NCBI GenBank assembly: GCA_025359915.1
Contig: JANYDE010000052.1
Span: forward strand, 1 to 47,854
Direction of reading: 5' to 3'
Length of the DNA: 47,854 nt
Origin: Chamaesiphon sp. 336R_metabinner_41
Lineage (GTDB): Bacteria; Cyanobacteriota; Cyanobacteriia; Cyanobacteriales; Chamaesiphonaceae
Shown here piece by piece: positions 5,501-44,712 of the stretch. Below the pieces are notes generated by a model. It was not told where the DNA came from, ran no database searches, and was given only the letters and a program-made list of their open reading frames with translations. The first letter of the stretch is position 1. The number at the start of each line of letters is the position of its first letter. A program made the position numbers and the translations under genes.

Positions 5501-5637
5501 CTAGAGGGCGGGCATGAAGCGGCGTTTTTATATCTAGGGTTCCCCCGTAACCGAGAGCCTCTCCAGGGTGGTTTCAGACACCGTCAGCCTCAATCGCTTA
5601 GTCCACTTCAGTGGACTTTCGCTCTTAGCCCCAAATT
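5501..5637. repeat. Interspersed repeat cluster between convergent genes
   Basis: The 201-base gap between the prenyltransferase and the SNF2 gene holds two repeat parts. At 5501-5515, ctagagggcgggcat recurs at 14422-14436. At 5563-5637 a segment of about 75 bases recurs at 20738-20813 on the other strand, with 46 bases identical by eye. That segment contains the near-palindrome agtccact-tc-agtggact. It is non-coding and may act as a transcript end for the two convergent genes. Confidence 0.75.
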
Positions 5638-5680
5638 CAAATGTTGCTAACAAAGAACTCAATTTGGATTGAGATCGAGG

Positions 5681-12509: not shown

Positions 12510-12604
12510 TAGGGGATAGGGATTAGGGATTAGGGATTAGGGGATAGGGATTAGGGATTAGGGATTAGGGATTAGGGATTAGGGATTAGGGGATAGGGGA
12601 TAGG
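12510..12604 (+). repeat. Heptamer tandem array (GGGATTA)n with GGGATAG variants
   Basis: About 13 near-perfect 7-base units run head to tail just upstream of the VWA gene start. Most are GGGATTA, mixed with GGGGATA. An inverted stretch of the same word (tatcccc / taatccc) lies at 12708-12738, so the transcript could fold the two together. This is a short tandemly repeated repetitive sequence of the cyanobacterial type. It resembles telomere repeats in composition only. Confidence 0.9.
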
Positions 12605-14436: not shown

Positions 14437-14545
14437 ACTAACGTTACAAGCAAGTACTACGTAAATAGTGTGAATAAACTACCGCTCTGTAAAATCAACG
14501 TTGCTACAACAAAAACAAATAAAGATTGCTATATTTAGCTAACAA

Positions 14546-14628
14546 CTAACCACTAAACCACTAAACCACTAGCAACTAGCAACTATCAACTATCAACTAG
14601 CAACTATCAACTATCAACTATCAACTAA
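14546..14628 (+). repeat. Tandem heptamer arrays ACCACTA and CAACTAT/CAACTAG
   Basis: First come about three units of cactaaac (inverted relative to 14311-14330), then about eight units of caactatcaactag. They end 13 bases before the glycosyltransferase start and so lie in its leader. Confidence 0.85.
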
Positions 14629-16005: not shown

Positions 16006-17676
16006 ATGACAGACATTAAATTAGGTCAAAGCATTGCAGGTTCTTTCACCAGTACCAAGGAGAGTGTTGATAATACTAATCCACTCACTGCTGCCTACTT
16101 TAATGAATACGATCTTCCAGGCTTAGATAGTTTTAGACAGTTCCACATTACCCTGCAACTTCCCGCAGGTAGCACCACCAGCACCACGCTCGAACTAATC
16201 GATGCCGCAACAGGTGACATTATCGCTCAAAGTATCCAAGCGGGAACCGTTACCCTCTCGGAAACCACCTTTCCAGGAATTAATTACAAAATTCGGGTCA
16301 CTAATACAAGTTTAGGCGACTATCAATTATCCCTTACCGATGGTGGTAAAGCGACTTCGATCGTCAGTCCACATAAACCGAATGTGCTCGACAATCATAC
16401 CAACTCTTTAGTCGGCACGATCGGTCAAAGCGGTCAATATTTTTCGCTAGCATCGGGAGGTGCCATCGAACTCACAGATATCGCCCTCGCTGCCGACAGT
16501 CAATTTTATGGAATCGGGCCATCTGCGACTCCAGGGCGGATAGATTCATTGTACCGAATCGATCCCAGTCTCGATCGATCGCAGCAGGTGAAACTCGTCA
16601 GCGAAATCAAAGATCCTCAAGGCAATAATTTGAGTAGCAGCATCCAGTCGTTGGAATTTGCCGCCGATAACAAACTCTACGCACTCGGTTATGCCGCCGA
16701 AGGAGCCAAGTTTTATCAGATTGATGTCAATACCAGTGTGGCAACTACGCTCGCCACTCTACCCCAAAGCTTTCTGATTGCTGGCGATCTCGTCTATGAT
16801 GCCGCCAAACAGAGCTTCCTAGCAACCTCTCTAGACGCTACAAATACATCAAATGATGCTTTGTGGCAAATCCCCCTCAGCAACCCGGCTGGAGCGACTA
16901 AAATCGGCATGACAGGCTTTACCGATGTCTATGGATTAACCTTGGAAAACGGTCAACTATTTGGCTATACCGCTCACGTCGTCCCAGGTGGCACTGGTGC
17001 CACTCGGATTAAGATCGATACTACCACTGGAGCCGGAACATTCGATCGAGCGATTACCGGAACTCAAACTTTTGGAATTGGCGGAGCTGCAAGTATTTTT
17101 ACCCCTGCGAACGAACTAGTCTTAAATGTCGTCAATTTAGGTGGTGCGACTACCATCGGCAGTAAATATCAAGGATTGCCCCAAGGACACACGATCGATC
17201 TCTCTGATTATACAGGTCGATCGATCGTCGCCGATATTACCACGATCAGCTCCGCAACTTATACCAATCAGATCGGCTTTTATGTCGTTGAAGATACCAT
17301 CGGCACGATTAAACTTGCCGATGGTACTACTCTCCAGCCTGGTGACATAAACTATGCCGCTGAAGCAGTTAAAAATGCCGCCTTCCAAGCAACTCAAACA
17401 GAGACTAAATTAGGTCAAAATCTCGTTGGCGGTCTCATCTATGCACCCGTAGTCATCGCTCAAGGTACGCTCACTGATTTTGTTGCCAAAAACCCCACCA
17501 ATGGTGGTGATGGTAATGCAATTCATGCTTACTTCAATTATATCGGTGCCAACTCCGATCGAACCGATCATTTCCGACTACTGGATAACAACAAATTTGG
17601 TTTTGAAGATATGTATGGTGGTGGCGACCGCGATTTCAACGATCTCATTGTTACCCTCAATGTTCGATCGATCTAA
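16006..17676 (+). CDS. DUF4114 surface-type protein, copy A
   Basis: The product is 556 residues with three regions. The N-terminal 120 residues look like a PPC-type beta domain (IKLGQSIAGSFTS, then GLDSFRQFHITL, NYKIRVTN and DYQLSLTD). The middle (about 140-380) has repeated propeller-like strands such as LEFAADNKLYALG, LYRIDP, YQIDVNTSVAT and ALWQIPLSNPAGATKIG. The end is a DUF4114 domain with the acidic, glycine-rich motif FGFEDMYGGGDRDFNDL, a likely Ca2+ site. No N-terminal signal peptide is seen, so if secreted it may use a type I (C-terminal signal) route. It is a tandem paralogue of the next gene, 101 bases downstream. Confidence 0.85.
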   Translation: MTDIKLGQSIAGSFTSTKESVDNTNPLTAAYFNEYDLPGLDSFRQFHITLQLPAGSTTSTTLELIDAATGDIIAQSIQAGTVTLSETTFPGINYKIRVTNTSLGDYQLSLTDGGKATSIVSPHKPNVLDNHTNSLVGTIGQSGQYFSLASGGAIELTDIALAADSQFYGIGPSATPGRIDSLYRIDPSLDRSQQVKLVSEIKDPQGNNLSSSIQSLEFAADNKLYALGYAAEGAKFYQIDVNTSVATTLATLPQSFLIAGDLVYDAAKQSFLATSLDATNTSNDALWQIPLSNPAGATKIGMTGFTDVYGLTLENGQLFGYTAHVVPGGTGATRIKIDTTTGAGTFDRAITGTQTFGIGGAASIFTPANELVLNVVNLGGATTIGSKYQGLPQGHTIDLSDYTGRSIVADITTISSATYTNQIGFYVVEDTIGTIKLADGTTLQPGDINYAAEAVKNAAFQATQTETKLGQNLVGGLIYAPVVIAQGTLTDFVAKNPTNGGDGNAIHAYFNYIGANSDRTDHFRLLDNNKFGFEDMYGGGDRDFNDLIVTLNVRSI

Positions 17677-17777: not shown

Positions 17778-19415
17778 ATGGCAAACATTAAATTAGGTCA
17801 AAGTATTGTAGGCTCTTTAACTAGTGGCGATGCCAAACTCGATGGCTCTAGCTACGACGAATATAATATCTCAGGACTAGACACTTTTCGACAGGTCAAG
17901 ATCTCCCTCGATCGACCAGAAAATGCTGGGAATACTATCGTCAGAGTTGTGAATGCGGATACAGGTATCCCCCTAAATGGAGCGACATCTTCCTCAGGGA
18001 CATTATCACTAACTGGAACCTCATTTCCTGGCACTAATTACAAAATTCAGGTAATCGGTGAAAAGTTAGGTGACTATACCTTATCACTCATCGATAATGG
18101 TAGAGCAACCTCCCTCGTCAGCACGCTCACCGCGCCCAGTACTGGTGATATCAAAGTTCGACTGGGCACGATTGGAGCTAGCGGGATTTTTACCCCCTTA
18201 GCAAGTTCGGCTGATAAATTTAGCACCGACTTACTATCGGATATCGCCTTGGCTCCCAACGGTCAATTATATGGAGTTGGGCATCCATCCGAGGGTGCGG
18301 GTGCCGATATGTTGTACAAAATCAATCCAAATGTTGGGGTAAGCGAGCGAATTCAGGGGACAAATATTATCAGTCCGAATGGAGTTAACCTGACAACAAC
18401 TCTCAACGCGCTCGAATTTGCGGCTGACAACAAACTTTATAGCATCGGATCCAACTCAGATAAACTTTATCAGATTGATGTTAAGACTAGTGTGGCAACT
18501 GCCATCGCCGATTTACCAAAAGGTTTTGTCGGGAGTAGCGATCTAGTTTATGATGCACCAAACAATCGTTTCTTGGCGACATCAAAAGATACCGAAACTA
18601 GTGATGCCCTCTGGCAAATTCCCCTAGCAAATCCAGCGGGAGCCACTAAAATCGGTCAAATTGGGTTTCTGGGTGTACTGGGCATCGACTTTGAAAATGG
18701 ACAACTGACTGGATTTGCGACTACTGGTACCGGAGATACTTCAAGTACCAACCGGATTAGGATTAGTCCTACGAGCGGTCTGGGCACACTCGATCAATCA
18801 ATTACAGGCGATCGACTTTTAGGCGGCATTAGTGGAGCTGCTACCATCCTAGGATCTACTCTAAATCCACTAGCTGCACCAGTAAATTGGATCGGCAGTC
18901 AATCCCAAGGACTACCCGAAGGAAATACGATCGATCTCTTCAAGGATACCGACAAAAAACTCAAAGCAGATATTACGACGAGCGGAAATGCTGCCTATAA
19001 CGATAGTATCGGTTTCTATGTTGTCGAAGACGGGCTGCTCGGCACCATCAAACTGAGCGATGGCAGTTTCTTGAAACCTGGTGATGCTAAATACGCACTC
19101 GAAGCAGCTAAAAGTGCCGTCTTCCAAGCAAGTAAAATCGACAGCCAACTCAACCGAGATATTACTGGCGGCAAAGTCTACGCACCGATAGTCATTGGAC
19201 AAGGTTCGTTAGCTGATTTTGTGAGCCGGAATCCCACGAATGGCGGCGGTAAGAATGAGATTCATGCTTACGTTAATTATGTTGCGGGTAATGCCGATAA
19301 AGTCGATCACTTCCGACTATTAGGTAATAATAGCTTTGGGGTGGAAGATATGTACGGTGGTGGCGATCGAGATTTCAACGATCTTGTCGTCAACGTTAAT
19401 ATTCGATCGGTCTAA
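17778..19415 (+). CDS. DUF4114 surface-type protein, copy B
   Basis: This 545-residue paralogue of copy A has the same order: N-terminal MANIKLGQSIVGSLTSGD with GLDTFRQVKISL, a propeller-like middle (LEFAADNKLYSIG, LYQIDVKTSVATAIADLP, ALWQIPLANPAGATKIG) and a C-terminal DUF4114 domain with FGVEDMYGGGDRDFNDLVV. The two proteins are clearly duplicates but have diverged most in loops and in the region after residue 300. An aagga ribosome binding site precedes the ATG by about 20 bases. A 16-bp stem-loop follows the stop (19437-19481). Extracellular location is inferred, not shown. Confidence 0.85.
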   Translation: MANIKLGQSIVGSLTSGDAKLDGSSYDEYNISGLDTFRQVKISLDRPENAGNTIVRVVNADTGIPLNGATSSSGTLSLTGTSFPGTNYKIQVIGEKLGDYTLSLIDNGRATSLVSTLTAPSTGDIKVRLGTIGASGIFTPLASSADKFSTDLLSDIALAPNGQLYGVGHPSEGAGADMLYKINPNVGVSERIQGTNIISPNGVNLTTTLNALEFAADNKLYSIGSNSDKLYQIDVKTSVATAIADLPKGFVGSSDLVYDAPNNRFLATSKDTETSDALWQIPLANPAGATKIGQIGFLGVLGIDFENGQLTGFATTGTGDTSSTNRIRISPTSGLGTLDQSITGDRLLGGISGAATILGSTLNPLAAPVNWIGSQSQGLPEGNTIDLFKDTDKKLKADITTSGNAAYNDSIGFYVVEDGLLGTIKLSDGSFLKPGDAKYALEAAKSAVFQASKIDSQLNRDITGGKVYAPIVIGQGSLADFVSRNPTNGGGKNEIHAYVNYVAGNADKVDHFRLLGNNSFGVEDMYGGGDRDFNDLVVNVNIRSV

Positions 19416-19528: not shown

Positions 19529-20523
19529 ATGGCAGTAGCAGCAAAGCAGAATAATTCGGACTCGTTCGAGCAGAAACTATGGAAAACCGCCGATAAGCTA
19601 CGCAAGAATATCGATGCGGCTGAATATAAGCATATTGTGCTGGGGCTAATTTTCCTCAAATACATCTCCGATGCCTTTGATGTCTTGCATGACAAGCTGC
19701 GATCAGGTGAGGGAGAATACGCTGGAGCCGACCCTGAAGACCGAGATGAATTCTGCCGAAAATGTGTTTTTCGTGCCTGTAGAGGCGCGGTGGGGGTATC
19801 TCCAAGCCCAGGCGAAACAGCCGGATATCGGTAAGACTGTCGATTTGGCGATGGAATCGAAGCTTGCGCGCCGTCTTCGGCGGTCGAGAAAGAAAACGCC
19901 AAGCGGTTGAAGGGGATTCTGCCTAAGGTGTACGGGCAACAGCAACGAAACTACCTATAAATTGTGTCGGATGAATCTCGCGCTGCGGGGAATTGATGGC
20001 TCGAATATCAAGTGGAATCCCGAAGGTTCGTTTCTCAATGATGCTCACCAGGATTTGAAGGCGGATTTTGTGATTGCCAATCCGCCGTTTAACGATAGCG
20101 ATTGGAGTGGGGACAGTTTGCGGACGGATGGACGCTGGCAATATGGGACACCGCCAGAAGGAAATGCTAACTTTGCCTGGGTGCAGCATTTTCTCTATCA
20201 TCTCTCCCCCACGGGTGCGGCGGGGTTTGTGTTGTCTAATGGTTCTTTATCCTCGAATACCAGCGGTGAGGGGGAGATTCGCAAGGCTTTAGTCGAGCAG
20301 GATTTGGTGGACTGTATCGTGATGTTGCCGACTCAACTTTTCTACAATACGGGGATTCCGGCTTGTCTGTGGTTTCTGAGCCGATACAAGAACCGCAACC
20401 GCAAGGGTGAGGTGTTATTCATCGATGCTTCGGAGTTGGGCTATATGGTGAGTCGGAGTAGTCGGGCGTTTACGGATGATGAGACTAGCAGGATTGCTGA
20501 TACTTATCATGAGTGGAAGAAGA
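19529..20523 (+). pseudogene. hsdM: Decayed type I restriction-modification methylase HsdM
   Basis: The frame opens with MAVAAKQNNSDSFEQKLWKT and the HsdM N-terminal helices (AEYKHIVLGLIFLKYISDAF). After DPEDRDEF (about 19750) it shifts by one base into AENVFFVPVEARWGYLQ. Near 19860 a second shift or small insertion leads to [19 protein letters not shown] (ending about 19937). There the text jumps directly to [20 protein letters not shown]. The jump loses the segment that in intact HsdM carries SAM-binding motif I (DPCCGSGGMF-type). The catalytic NPPF remains at about 20079. Similarity ends at [18 protein letters not shown], where repeats take over. No hsdR or hsdS remains nearby. It is not expected to be active. 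Confidence 0.88.
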
Positions 20524-20525
20524 TT

Positions 20526-20641
20526 CCCTCCCCTAGCCCCTCCCAGGATGCGAGGATTTTCCCCTCCCCTAGCCCCTCCCAGGATGCGAGGATTTTCCCC
20601 TCCCCTAGCCCCTCCCAGGATGCGGGGATTTTCCCCTCCCA
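20526..20641 (+). repeat. 36-bp tandem repeat, about 3 copies
   Basis: The period is 36 bases, judged from ctagcccctcccagg at 20533, 20569 and 20605. As 36 is a multiple of 3, the open frame continues through it as a 12-residue repeat ([12 protein letters not shown]). The units are almost identical; the third has gcgggg for gcgagg. The array replaces the C-terminus of the hsdM remnant and may vary in copy number between strains. Confidence 0.88.
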
Positions 20642-20701
20642 GGGGCAGGGTGGTTTCATACAAGAAAAGAATAATGTCAAAACCCTAGTTCTTAGTCTTC
20701 A

Positions 20702-20813
20702 AACGCCCTCTGCGAAGGCAGACGCTACGCGAACAAATGAATTTGGGGCTAAGAGCGAAAGTCCACTGAAGTGGACTAAGCGATTTTTCTTCCGGTGTAT
20801 GAAACCACCCTGG
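20702..20813. repeat. Palindromic interspersed repeats at the hsdM 3' end
   Basis: Two parts are seen. ccctctgcgaaggcagacgc (20707-20726) is a small hairpin repeat related to one found in cofH (29166-29183). At 20738-20813 lies the second copy of the element at 5563-5637, inverted, with agtccact-ga-agtggact at its centre. They carry the open frame to a stop at 20852, overlapping the 3' end of cpcT. Confidence 0.75.
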
Positions 20814-20848
20814 TTTAGCTATTTGCTTGAGGGGGTTAAATTATTAAG

Positions 20849-21454
20849 CTAAACTACCAAACCACCAATTTGGACTTCATCGGCAAAACTAACTGTCTGA
20901 GTGAATTCAAATGGCCCCGCAATCGATCCCCAGATATGTTCATCGGTAATAATATCACGACCGCGATCGAGGCTAATTAGCTTCCCAGGTGCGATTTCAA
21001 AGCTGTTGTCCAAATAAGTCTCTTTGCCATTTCGGGTGACCTTACAGCCCTTTCCAGGCTCCACATAGCCTTTAAAAGTACTACCAGTCCACTCGGTAAT
21101 CATCGTGCAGCCGGACATCTTAATAATTTGCTGGCGGGTAAGTTGTTGGAGCTTTTCGGGCTGACGTGCAGCTCCATGAAATTCGGCTTCCGGTTCGATA
21201 TTATAATGTTCGATTTCGATTCGTTCGTTGACAATCACAAATTTCAATACTCGCAATCGATAGGGATTACCAAGCATAAAATCATAAGCCTGTTCGAGAA
21301 ATAAACTCACCCCATCCAATAACTCATATGGAAGCGGACGCATACATACCCGGATATGTGCGAAAAATGGTGGATTTTCAAATGCTTGTGCTTGATTGCT
21401 AAAATCTCCAGCCATCCAGCGTACCAGGGTAGGAATATCTGTAGAATGAGTCAT
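20849..21454 (-). CDS. cpcT: Phycobiliprotein chromophore lyase CpcT
   Basis: This is a 201-residue member of the CpcT/CpeT lyases, which attach phycocyanobilin to the beta subunit of phycocyanin (Cys153/155 site in the known enzyme). The family signatures are very clear: [20 protein letters not shown] at the start, [54 protein letters not shown] and PFEFTQ. The start is placed at MTHS, giving the normal length; an upstream extension of 17 residues is not conserved. It is divergent from the DUF309 gene with 67 bases between starts. No other phycobilisome gene is in the window. Confidence 0.95.
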
Positions 21455-21521
21455 AGTCAACGATCGGATGTTAGTTACTATCGATCTTACCTGGAACTGT
21501 GGCACTGGACTCGATAAAATT

Positions 21522-28980: not shown

Positions 28981-29012
28981 GGGGAAAGGGGAAAGGGGAA
29001 AGGGAAAAGGGG
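28981..29012 (+). repeat. Heptamer tandem array (GGGGAAA)n
   Basis: Three to four GGGGAAA units with a decaying fourth lie in the gap upstream of the hydroxylase fusion. The same word forms the array at 34643-34671. Confidence 0.85.
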
Positions 29013-34642: not shown

Positions 34643-34671
34643 AGGGGAAAGGGGAAAGGGGAAAGGGGAAG
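34643..34671 (+). repeat. Heptamer tandem array (GGGGAAA)n
   Basis: Four perfect GGGGAAA units sit 4 bases upstream of the pseudouridine synthase ATG (as cctttcc on its strand) in the gap between divergent genes. It is the same word as at 28981-29012. Confidence 0.88.
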
Positions 34672-42308: not shown

Positions 42309-42342
42309 CAGTTGACAGTTGACAGTTGACAGTTGACAGTTG
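42309..42342 (+). repeat. Heptamer tandem array (TTGACAG)n between atpB and atpE
   Basis: Four perfect TTGACAG units and a fifth partial begin 3 bases after the atpB stop. The word contains TTGACA, like a -35 box, but no fitting -10 box is seen 17 bases downstream of the last unit. It lies in the 148-base spacer of the operon. Confidence 0.88.
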
Positions 42343-44625: not shown

Positions 44626-44712
44626 TTAGGGGATAGGGAATAGGGGATAGGGGATAGGAGTTTAACTAATCATTAAAAAACCTAAAGCCTAAAGCCTAAA
44701 GCCTGAAGCCTA
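44626..44712 (+). repeat. Two heptamer arrays between atpH and atpA
   Basis: 44626-44659 has GGGGATA and GGGAATA units (the word also seen near the VWA gene), and 44681-44712 has CCTAAAG units about four times. Together they fill much of the 124-base spacer before the atpA ATG. Confidence 0.87.

Follow-up and report, generated by a model that had tools for sequence, protein, structure and literature searches.

The window, that is, the whole 47,854-nucleotide stretch analysed here, is the entire contig C4 of a Chamaesiphon draft genome in 169 contigs. Very probably, it carries most of an hsdM gene that was recently broken by three lesions and bears a repeat array in a loop, followed by a MITE at which the assembler misjoined the half of another locus that holds a CpeT gene, the real continuation of hsdM being off the assembly. 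As a pseudogene the locus is ordinary and recent, and it lies at what is probably a seam in the assembly. An earlier note on this DNA had described an hsdM broken by several lesions, its 3' end lost and its C-terminus replaced by repeats. The lesions are borne out, three being recognized in DNA alignments to the homologues L009 and L027; the replacement is not, since the array is an insert in a loop and the contig probably switches location at the MITE. The apparent replacement of a gene end by repeats is most likely a seam of the draft assembly, and serves as a warning; target-site duplications together with gene order could reveal such a seam without recourse to reads.

A search with Pfam profiles detected homology to hsdM of type I restriction-modification systems at 19529-20525, in four pieces, with HsdM_N (PF12161) in the frame of 19529 (E 1.2e-13, profile positions 2-50 of 135) and N6_Mtase (PF02384) in the frame of 19941 (E 1.9e-63, profile positions 86-279 of 311). 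The pieces and the lesions that separate them are as follows.

19529-19750, plus strand: 5' hsdM piece with HsdM_N (open reading frame 19529-19834; Pfam; aligned to L009 and L027)
19748-19752, plus strand: lesion 1, loss of 2 bases by comparison with intact homologues (DNA aligned pairwise to L009 and L027)
19752-19855, plus strand: second hsdM piece (SAENVFFVPVEARW...), in another frame
19856-19878, plus strand: lesion 2, a 23-base insertion (DNA alignment; exact ends ambiguous by a few bases)
19879-19940, plus strand: third hsdM piece, in the first frame again (alignment to L009 and L027)
19940-19941, plus strand: lesion 3, a deletion junction with about 323-326 bases missing (alignment to L009 and L027)
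19941-20525, plus strand: fourth hsdM piece, the catalytic domain with the NPPF motif, to HEWKK (Pfam N6_Mtase)

The remnant has no single open reading frame. Its frame changes three times (the coordinates 19529, 19752, 19880 and 19941 are, modulo 3, 2, 0, 2 and 0), and each piece, read in its own frame, has zero internal stop codons. The fourth, or C, piece retains the NPPF motif (as NPPFN) and is 73-90% identical to its cyanobacterial matches; AdoMet motif I is absent, which makes this a remnant of the family and not a working member. Relatives of the gene are common in cyanobacteria: Pseudanabaena cinerea (L027) has a complete hsdM of 524 codons with 90% identity, and G003, a genome of the same genus, has an hsdM with 89% identity (query residues 1-186) that stays open until its contig stops, short of the HEWKK site.

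The lesion near 19750 is real; described earlier as a one-base change, it amounts to 2 bases lost when set against L009 and L027. The frame of the 5' piece continues beyond it, shifted, to a stop codon at 19832-19834. A second shift had been placed near 19860-19880, and there the alignment reveals the 23-base insertion. A 24-mer across this insertion has exact copies at C39:542 and C126:757 of the same genome, which makes the inserted segment part of a small dispersed repeat; a search at up to 3 mismatches added no copies, and the backward control gave none. The loss of 2 and the gain of 23 bases jointly restore the hsdM frame, so that before 19940 only the stretch between these two lesions is out of frame, and it is in this stretch that the stop at 19832-19834 falls. 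The absence of the motif I segment, anticipated at about 19930-19940, is confirmed: 323 bases are missing relative to L027, and 326 relative to L009, at 19940/19941, and the lost stretch holds DPCCGSGGMF in L027. The mechanism suggested for this deletion, between two similar YGQ stretches, does not fit. The two stretches are in frame and 324-381 nucleotides apart in 13 of the 17 homologues chosen for this comparison, those with a frame usable by the pattern employed (the other four are L029, L033, L142 and L144). A clean YGQ-to-YGQ deletion was rejected, as it would have kept the frame and the junction is in the wrong phase; on visual inspection, the bases shared at the junction number only about 2.

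The age of these lesions was approached through the distribution of substitutions over codon positions 1, 2 and 3. When L027 is taken as the reference and L034 as the outgroup, the window branch has 4, 1 and 23 substitutions in the N piece and 8, 5 and 30 in the C piece, and the reference branch 3, 0 and 8, and 7, 3 and 22, respectively. The corresponding window-branch counts with L131 are 2, 1 and 17 (N piece) and 7, 3 and 31 (C piece), and with L032 they are 4, 2 and 19, and 8, 5 and 34. The two short middle pieces have too few changes for such inference, and a comparison of L138 with L029 yields no row, L029 being without a frame. The substitutions still look like the product of purifying selection; the third-position excess in the N and C pieces points to recent lesions and, by this measure, the inactivation of hsdM is recent. 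As motif I is missing and the frame is interrupted, a methylase product is not expected from the locus which, judged from its coding capacity, most likely does nothing as a methylase now.

Downstream of HEWKK, the features that make up the presumed seam are the following.

20526-20640, plus strand: 36-bp repeat (12 codons) in 3.2 copies, inserted in the loop that separates HxWK from DIKGFCKSA
20646-20812, no strand: 167-bp MITE with 17-bp terminal inverted repeats (CAGGGTGGTTTCATACA), with at least 16 other copies at 99-100% identity
20813-20831, no strand: 19-bp target-site duplication, paired with the end of contig C108 and not with the flank to the left of the MITE
20849-21505, minus strand: CpeT/CpcT-family gene, the first one in the contig's right half (Pfam CpeT)

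A 36-bp array and two hairpin repeats had been reported here; the array is present, and both hairpins belong to the one MITE. The open frame of the C piece, in which the array stays although the gene is broken, reaches 20852 (296 codons). The open frame 19962-20852 was rejected as a gene, its last part spanning the MITE and a flank that probably comes from elsewhere. The 36-bp unit is not dispersed in the genome, as no other copies of a 23-bp stretch of it were found at up to 2 mismatches. Heptanucleotide tandem arrays also occur in the window, at 12510-12604, 14539-14628, 28981-29012, 34643-34670, 42309-42342 and 44627-44712.

The MITE has no transposase-sized frame, and no autonomous partner or transposase was identified among the open reading frames of 5 kb of contig C117; it is often inserted within other palindromic repeats. 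A partial, diverged copy (89% identity) lies at 5563-5645 of the window. At 15 of the 16 other near-identical copies, among the matches listed, the contig ends after 129-142 bp of the element, which is the usual behaviour of an assembler at an unresolved repeat; in a study of Porphyromonas gingivalis, two thirds of the assembly gaps are reported to be at IS or MITE copies, and repeats to be sites of misassembly (PMC5771137). When the flanks of the MITE copies were compared (11 left and 7 right), six pairs were found to share 18-19 bases: C151-C53, C108-C4, C74-C57, C70-C28, C49-C27 and C154-C56. The left flank at C108 and the right flank at C4 share 19 bases, whereas the left and right flanks at C4 share 0. 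The remaining shared runs are of 9 and 10 bases (C71 with C56 and C21), and the flanks with no 18-19-bp partner (left, C4, C71, C80, C153 and C143; right, C21) fit sequence missing from the assembly. A duplication of 18-19 bp is unusually long for a MITE. The complete 144-bp relative on C117 is bordered by one of 19 bp; complete diverged relatives on C73 and C102 (75% identity) have no exact duplication.

Gene order in other genomes of the genus is the second line of evidence. The gene at the end of C108 comes after the CpeT gene, within about 0.3 kb of it, in six of eight of them; G003 and G004 lack it beside CpeT in the approximately 1.3-1.5 kb examined. The two halves of the contig are not told apart by tetranucleotide composition (0.143 between them, compared with 0.230 within the right half), a measure that is uninformative within one genome. 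Judging from the duplications and from how the genes are ordered in congeners, the half with hsdM and the half with CpeT do not appear to be former neighbours. They were probably joined wrongly at the MITE, in which case the CpeT gene is probably not the true neighbour of hsdM.

If so, the 3' part of the gene should be sought elsewhere. A query of 116 residues from the C-terminal part of HsdM matched the Chamaesiphon genome itself only at 20412-20525. MITE right ends were located at 12 places at up to 3 mismatches, none followed by the duplication expected of the hsdM half, and the same partner search in 222 loci gave no match. It had also been stated that no hsdS or hsdR remains. None is seen beside hsdM on the contig; their loss is unsupported, as the sequence downstream probably belongs elsewhere and the true neighbourhood is probably outside the window. 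Both genes are found 3' of hsdM in L041, L038, L030, L028 and Leptolyngbya PCC 6406; in L034, neither is evident among the listed open reading frames, the one large downstream frame encoding a TPR/trypsin protein. We infer that the true continuation of hsdM, with any hsdS and hsdR, is on sequence missing from the assembly, and the 3' end could be gone at that continuation too. Other type I parts occur in the genome, namely, a 517-codon hsdM on C113 (L130) with 35% identity to the C piece and a short hsdS-like gene of 196 codons, hsdM and hsdS fragments on C71 (L129; 123-287 and 1589-1885), and a 1175-codon HSDR_N protein on C39 (L190); none could be tied to the hsdM of the window. The C39 protein was considered as the HsdR of this family and rejected, as it matched only itself at E <= 1e-20 among 174 open reading frames from 20 loci. 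Directly upstream of hsdM are two tandem DUF4114 genes (16006-17676 and 17778-19415), 52% identical to each other. Relatives of the DUF4114 gene occur in eight of nine genomes of the genus, including this one; in the two closest foreign loci, L212 (G005) and L213 (G001), the short stretches examined contain nothing that matches the large hsdM piece.

We consider it very probable, as said at the outset, that the history of the locus was as follows. A cyanobacterial-type hsdM was inactivated by the 2-base deletion, the insertion of a 23-base dispersed repeat and a deletion of about 325 bases that removed the AdoMet motif, as the alignment shows; it carries the array in the loop that links its catalytic domain to the C-terminal part, a place where other HsdM proteins also have repeats. 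A MITE follows the array, the expected 18-19-bp duplication being absent on its other side, and here the assembler would have fused the left half to the CpeT half of the MITE copy at the end of C108, as the duplications and gene order suggest, leaving the continuation of hsdM, with any hsdS and hsdR, on sequence absent from the assembly. Unlikely, in our estimate, is the alternative in which the contig is correct and hsdM was truly brought beside CpeT, through recombination of two MITE copies or through a deletion that stops at the MITE, so that the 3' end of hsdM, hsdS and hsdR were lost or moved. Recombination between two copies would give the same contig, a review describes MITE recombination (PMC10969869), the C-terminus of HsdM is nowhere else in the assembly, and the contig is continuous through the MITE, unlike at 15 of the 16 other near-identical copies among the matches listed. 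The last observation also has the opposite implication, as a join through an element that breaks the assembly at nearly all of its listed copies is the least reliable. Moreover, C108 ends exactly at the MITE copy whose duplication matches the right flank in the window, and the gene order in six of eight congeners agrees with linkage of C108 to CpeT.

The remaining alternatives concern the gene itself. If the organism had an intact gene, and the frame changes came from errors in sequencing or assembly, this would be compatible with a substitution pattern that is that of a functional gene and with pieces free of stops, each in its own frame; base-calling errors do not usually take the form of 23 inserted bases that match a dispersed repeat, or of a deletion of about 325 bases, and we regard this explanation as very improbable. 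Hardly credible is the suggestion that the array renders hsdM phase-variable, or that the open frame of 296 codons encodes a working truncated protein. Granted, the C piece is open to 20852 and the array preserves the frame, but whole 36-bp units are unable to switch frame, the 296-codon frame includes neither motif I nor the N-terminal domain, and the frame past 20812 probably comes from another locus. Under the preferred reading, a recently broken hsdM at a wrong join, the array is an insert in a loop, and inserts at this loop are recurrent.

Among 82 distinct HsdM sequences (loci in which both HxWK and DIKGFCKSA were found, these being the best search matches rather than a random sample), the spacer between the two motifs is 6-12 residues in 68 and 15-66 residues in 14; the window's own hsdM, in which the C-terminal motif is missing, is outside this set. 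The long inserts are in frame in 13 of the 14, and eight were seen in full-length open frames. The titles of their records assign these 14 sequences to cyanobacteria, Cloacimonadota, Bacteroidota, Ignavibacteria and Brocadia, two being from genomes of the order to which the window belongs. In an alignment of 34 full-length HsdM (from 35 chosen loci, L029 lacking a frame), in which insert-bearing sequences were deliberately included, repeat-like inserts of at least 8 residues occupy the HxWK-DIKGFCKSA loop in eight, two of them with a second block. A second loop, before KGEVLFIDA, has repeat-like inserts in L035 and L048; the 8 residues at this place in L164 are not repeat-like, and by eye the same holds for the rest of the inserts, for example 15-19 residues at consensus position 155 in 12 sequences. 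In an AlphaFold2 model of the HsdM of Leptolyngbya PCC 6406 (mean pLDDT 74.9, pTM 0.72), residues 460-490, within the insert, have pLDDT below 50 and lie between a helix (442-457) and a strand (504-508). Hairpin z scores of -1.5 or lower were obtained for eight of the 14 inserts; the window's own array, with z +1.36, is not a stable hairpin. The PCC 6406 insert (L036) has at least 22 matches in its own genome, including itself, at least 12 of which are scattered, 43-44 bases long and of weak E-value. From these comparisons, the interdomain loop of HsdM appears to be a recurrent insertion site for unlike repeats; our literature search found no report of in-frame insertion of palindromic repeats in hsdM.

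Similar segments were encountered in two HsdR proteins. That of L028, an Acaryochloris MAG, is a 1329-codon open frame (L028:4347-8333) with HSDR_N, SWI2_SNF2 and T1RH-like_C and several in-frame repeat segments, between which, ahead of the helicase domain, is a DUF559 domain (E 1.7e-35). The HsdR of PCC 6406 (L223:9758-13420; 1220 amino acids) has the same Pfam domains and repeat segments at several places, with no DUF559. When the DUF559 segment was compared with 83 loci, only L028 matched, and a stricter scan for repeat motifs in the same loci flagged large open reading frames only in L028 and PCC 6406, so that repeat inserts in HsdR are established for these two systems only. It is possible, although we hold this tentatively, that the palindromic repeats of each host land recurrently in the disordered HsdM loop, in the loop before KGEVLFIDA and at several places in HsdR, inserting in frame and leaving the proteins preserved, in five or more groups of phylum level as judged from record titles; the DUF559 of L028 would fit a nuclease-aided spread of repeats. 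This by-product of the analysis is weightier than the locus itself, in that one loop of a multi-subunit DNA-cutting enzyme would tolerate unlike in-frame repeats in distant bacteria. The loop inserts make it testable whether such repeats have no effect on fitness, change the way in which the subunits assemble or owe their position to a nuclease.

Compared with known systems, the remnant shares with type I HsdM (HsdM_N plus N6_Mtase; TIGR00497 hsdM) its domains and the NPPF motif, and differs by the three lesions, the missing motif I and a C-terminal part that is outside the window. Even the intact L027 protein, for which the nearest solved chain is 3khk_A, scores below the TIGR00497 cut-off (203 versus 243 bits). 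A second broken hsdM, in G032:C8 (L132/L013, about 3370-2170), is likewise without the motif I segment and carries SPSPSQ inserted behind HEWK, the first 21 bases of the window's array being identical in L132 at the same site; the deletion ends are other than those in the window, the 23-base insert is absent and the C-terminal part is present. As the lesions differ, the two genes decayed independently. The MITE resembles MITEs in general in its terminal inverted repeats and many identical copies, and the length of its duplications alone makes the IS1202 group, for which duplications of 16-28 bp are given (PMC10132070), a candidate relative. The closest analogy to the loop inserts is with protein-coding palindromic repeats, the Rickettsia palindromic elements, which are short repeats inserted in frame into genes (PMC10969869, PMC3733652). 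The window's array differs from these elements in not being a stable hairpin and, in HsdM, unlike repeats meet at the loop of one family, in several phyla.
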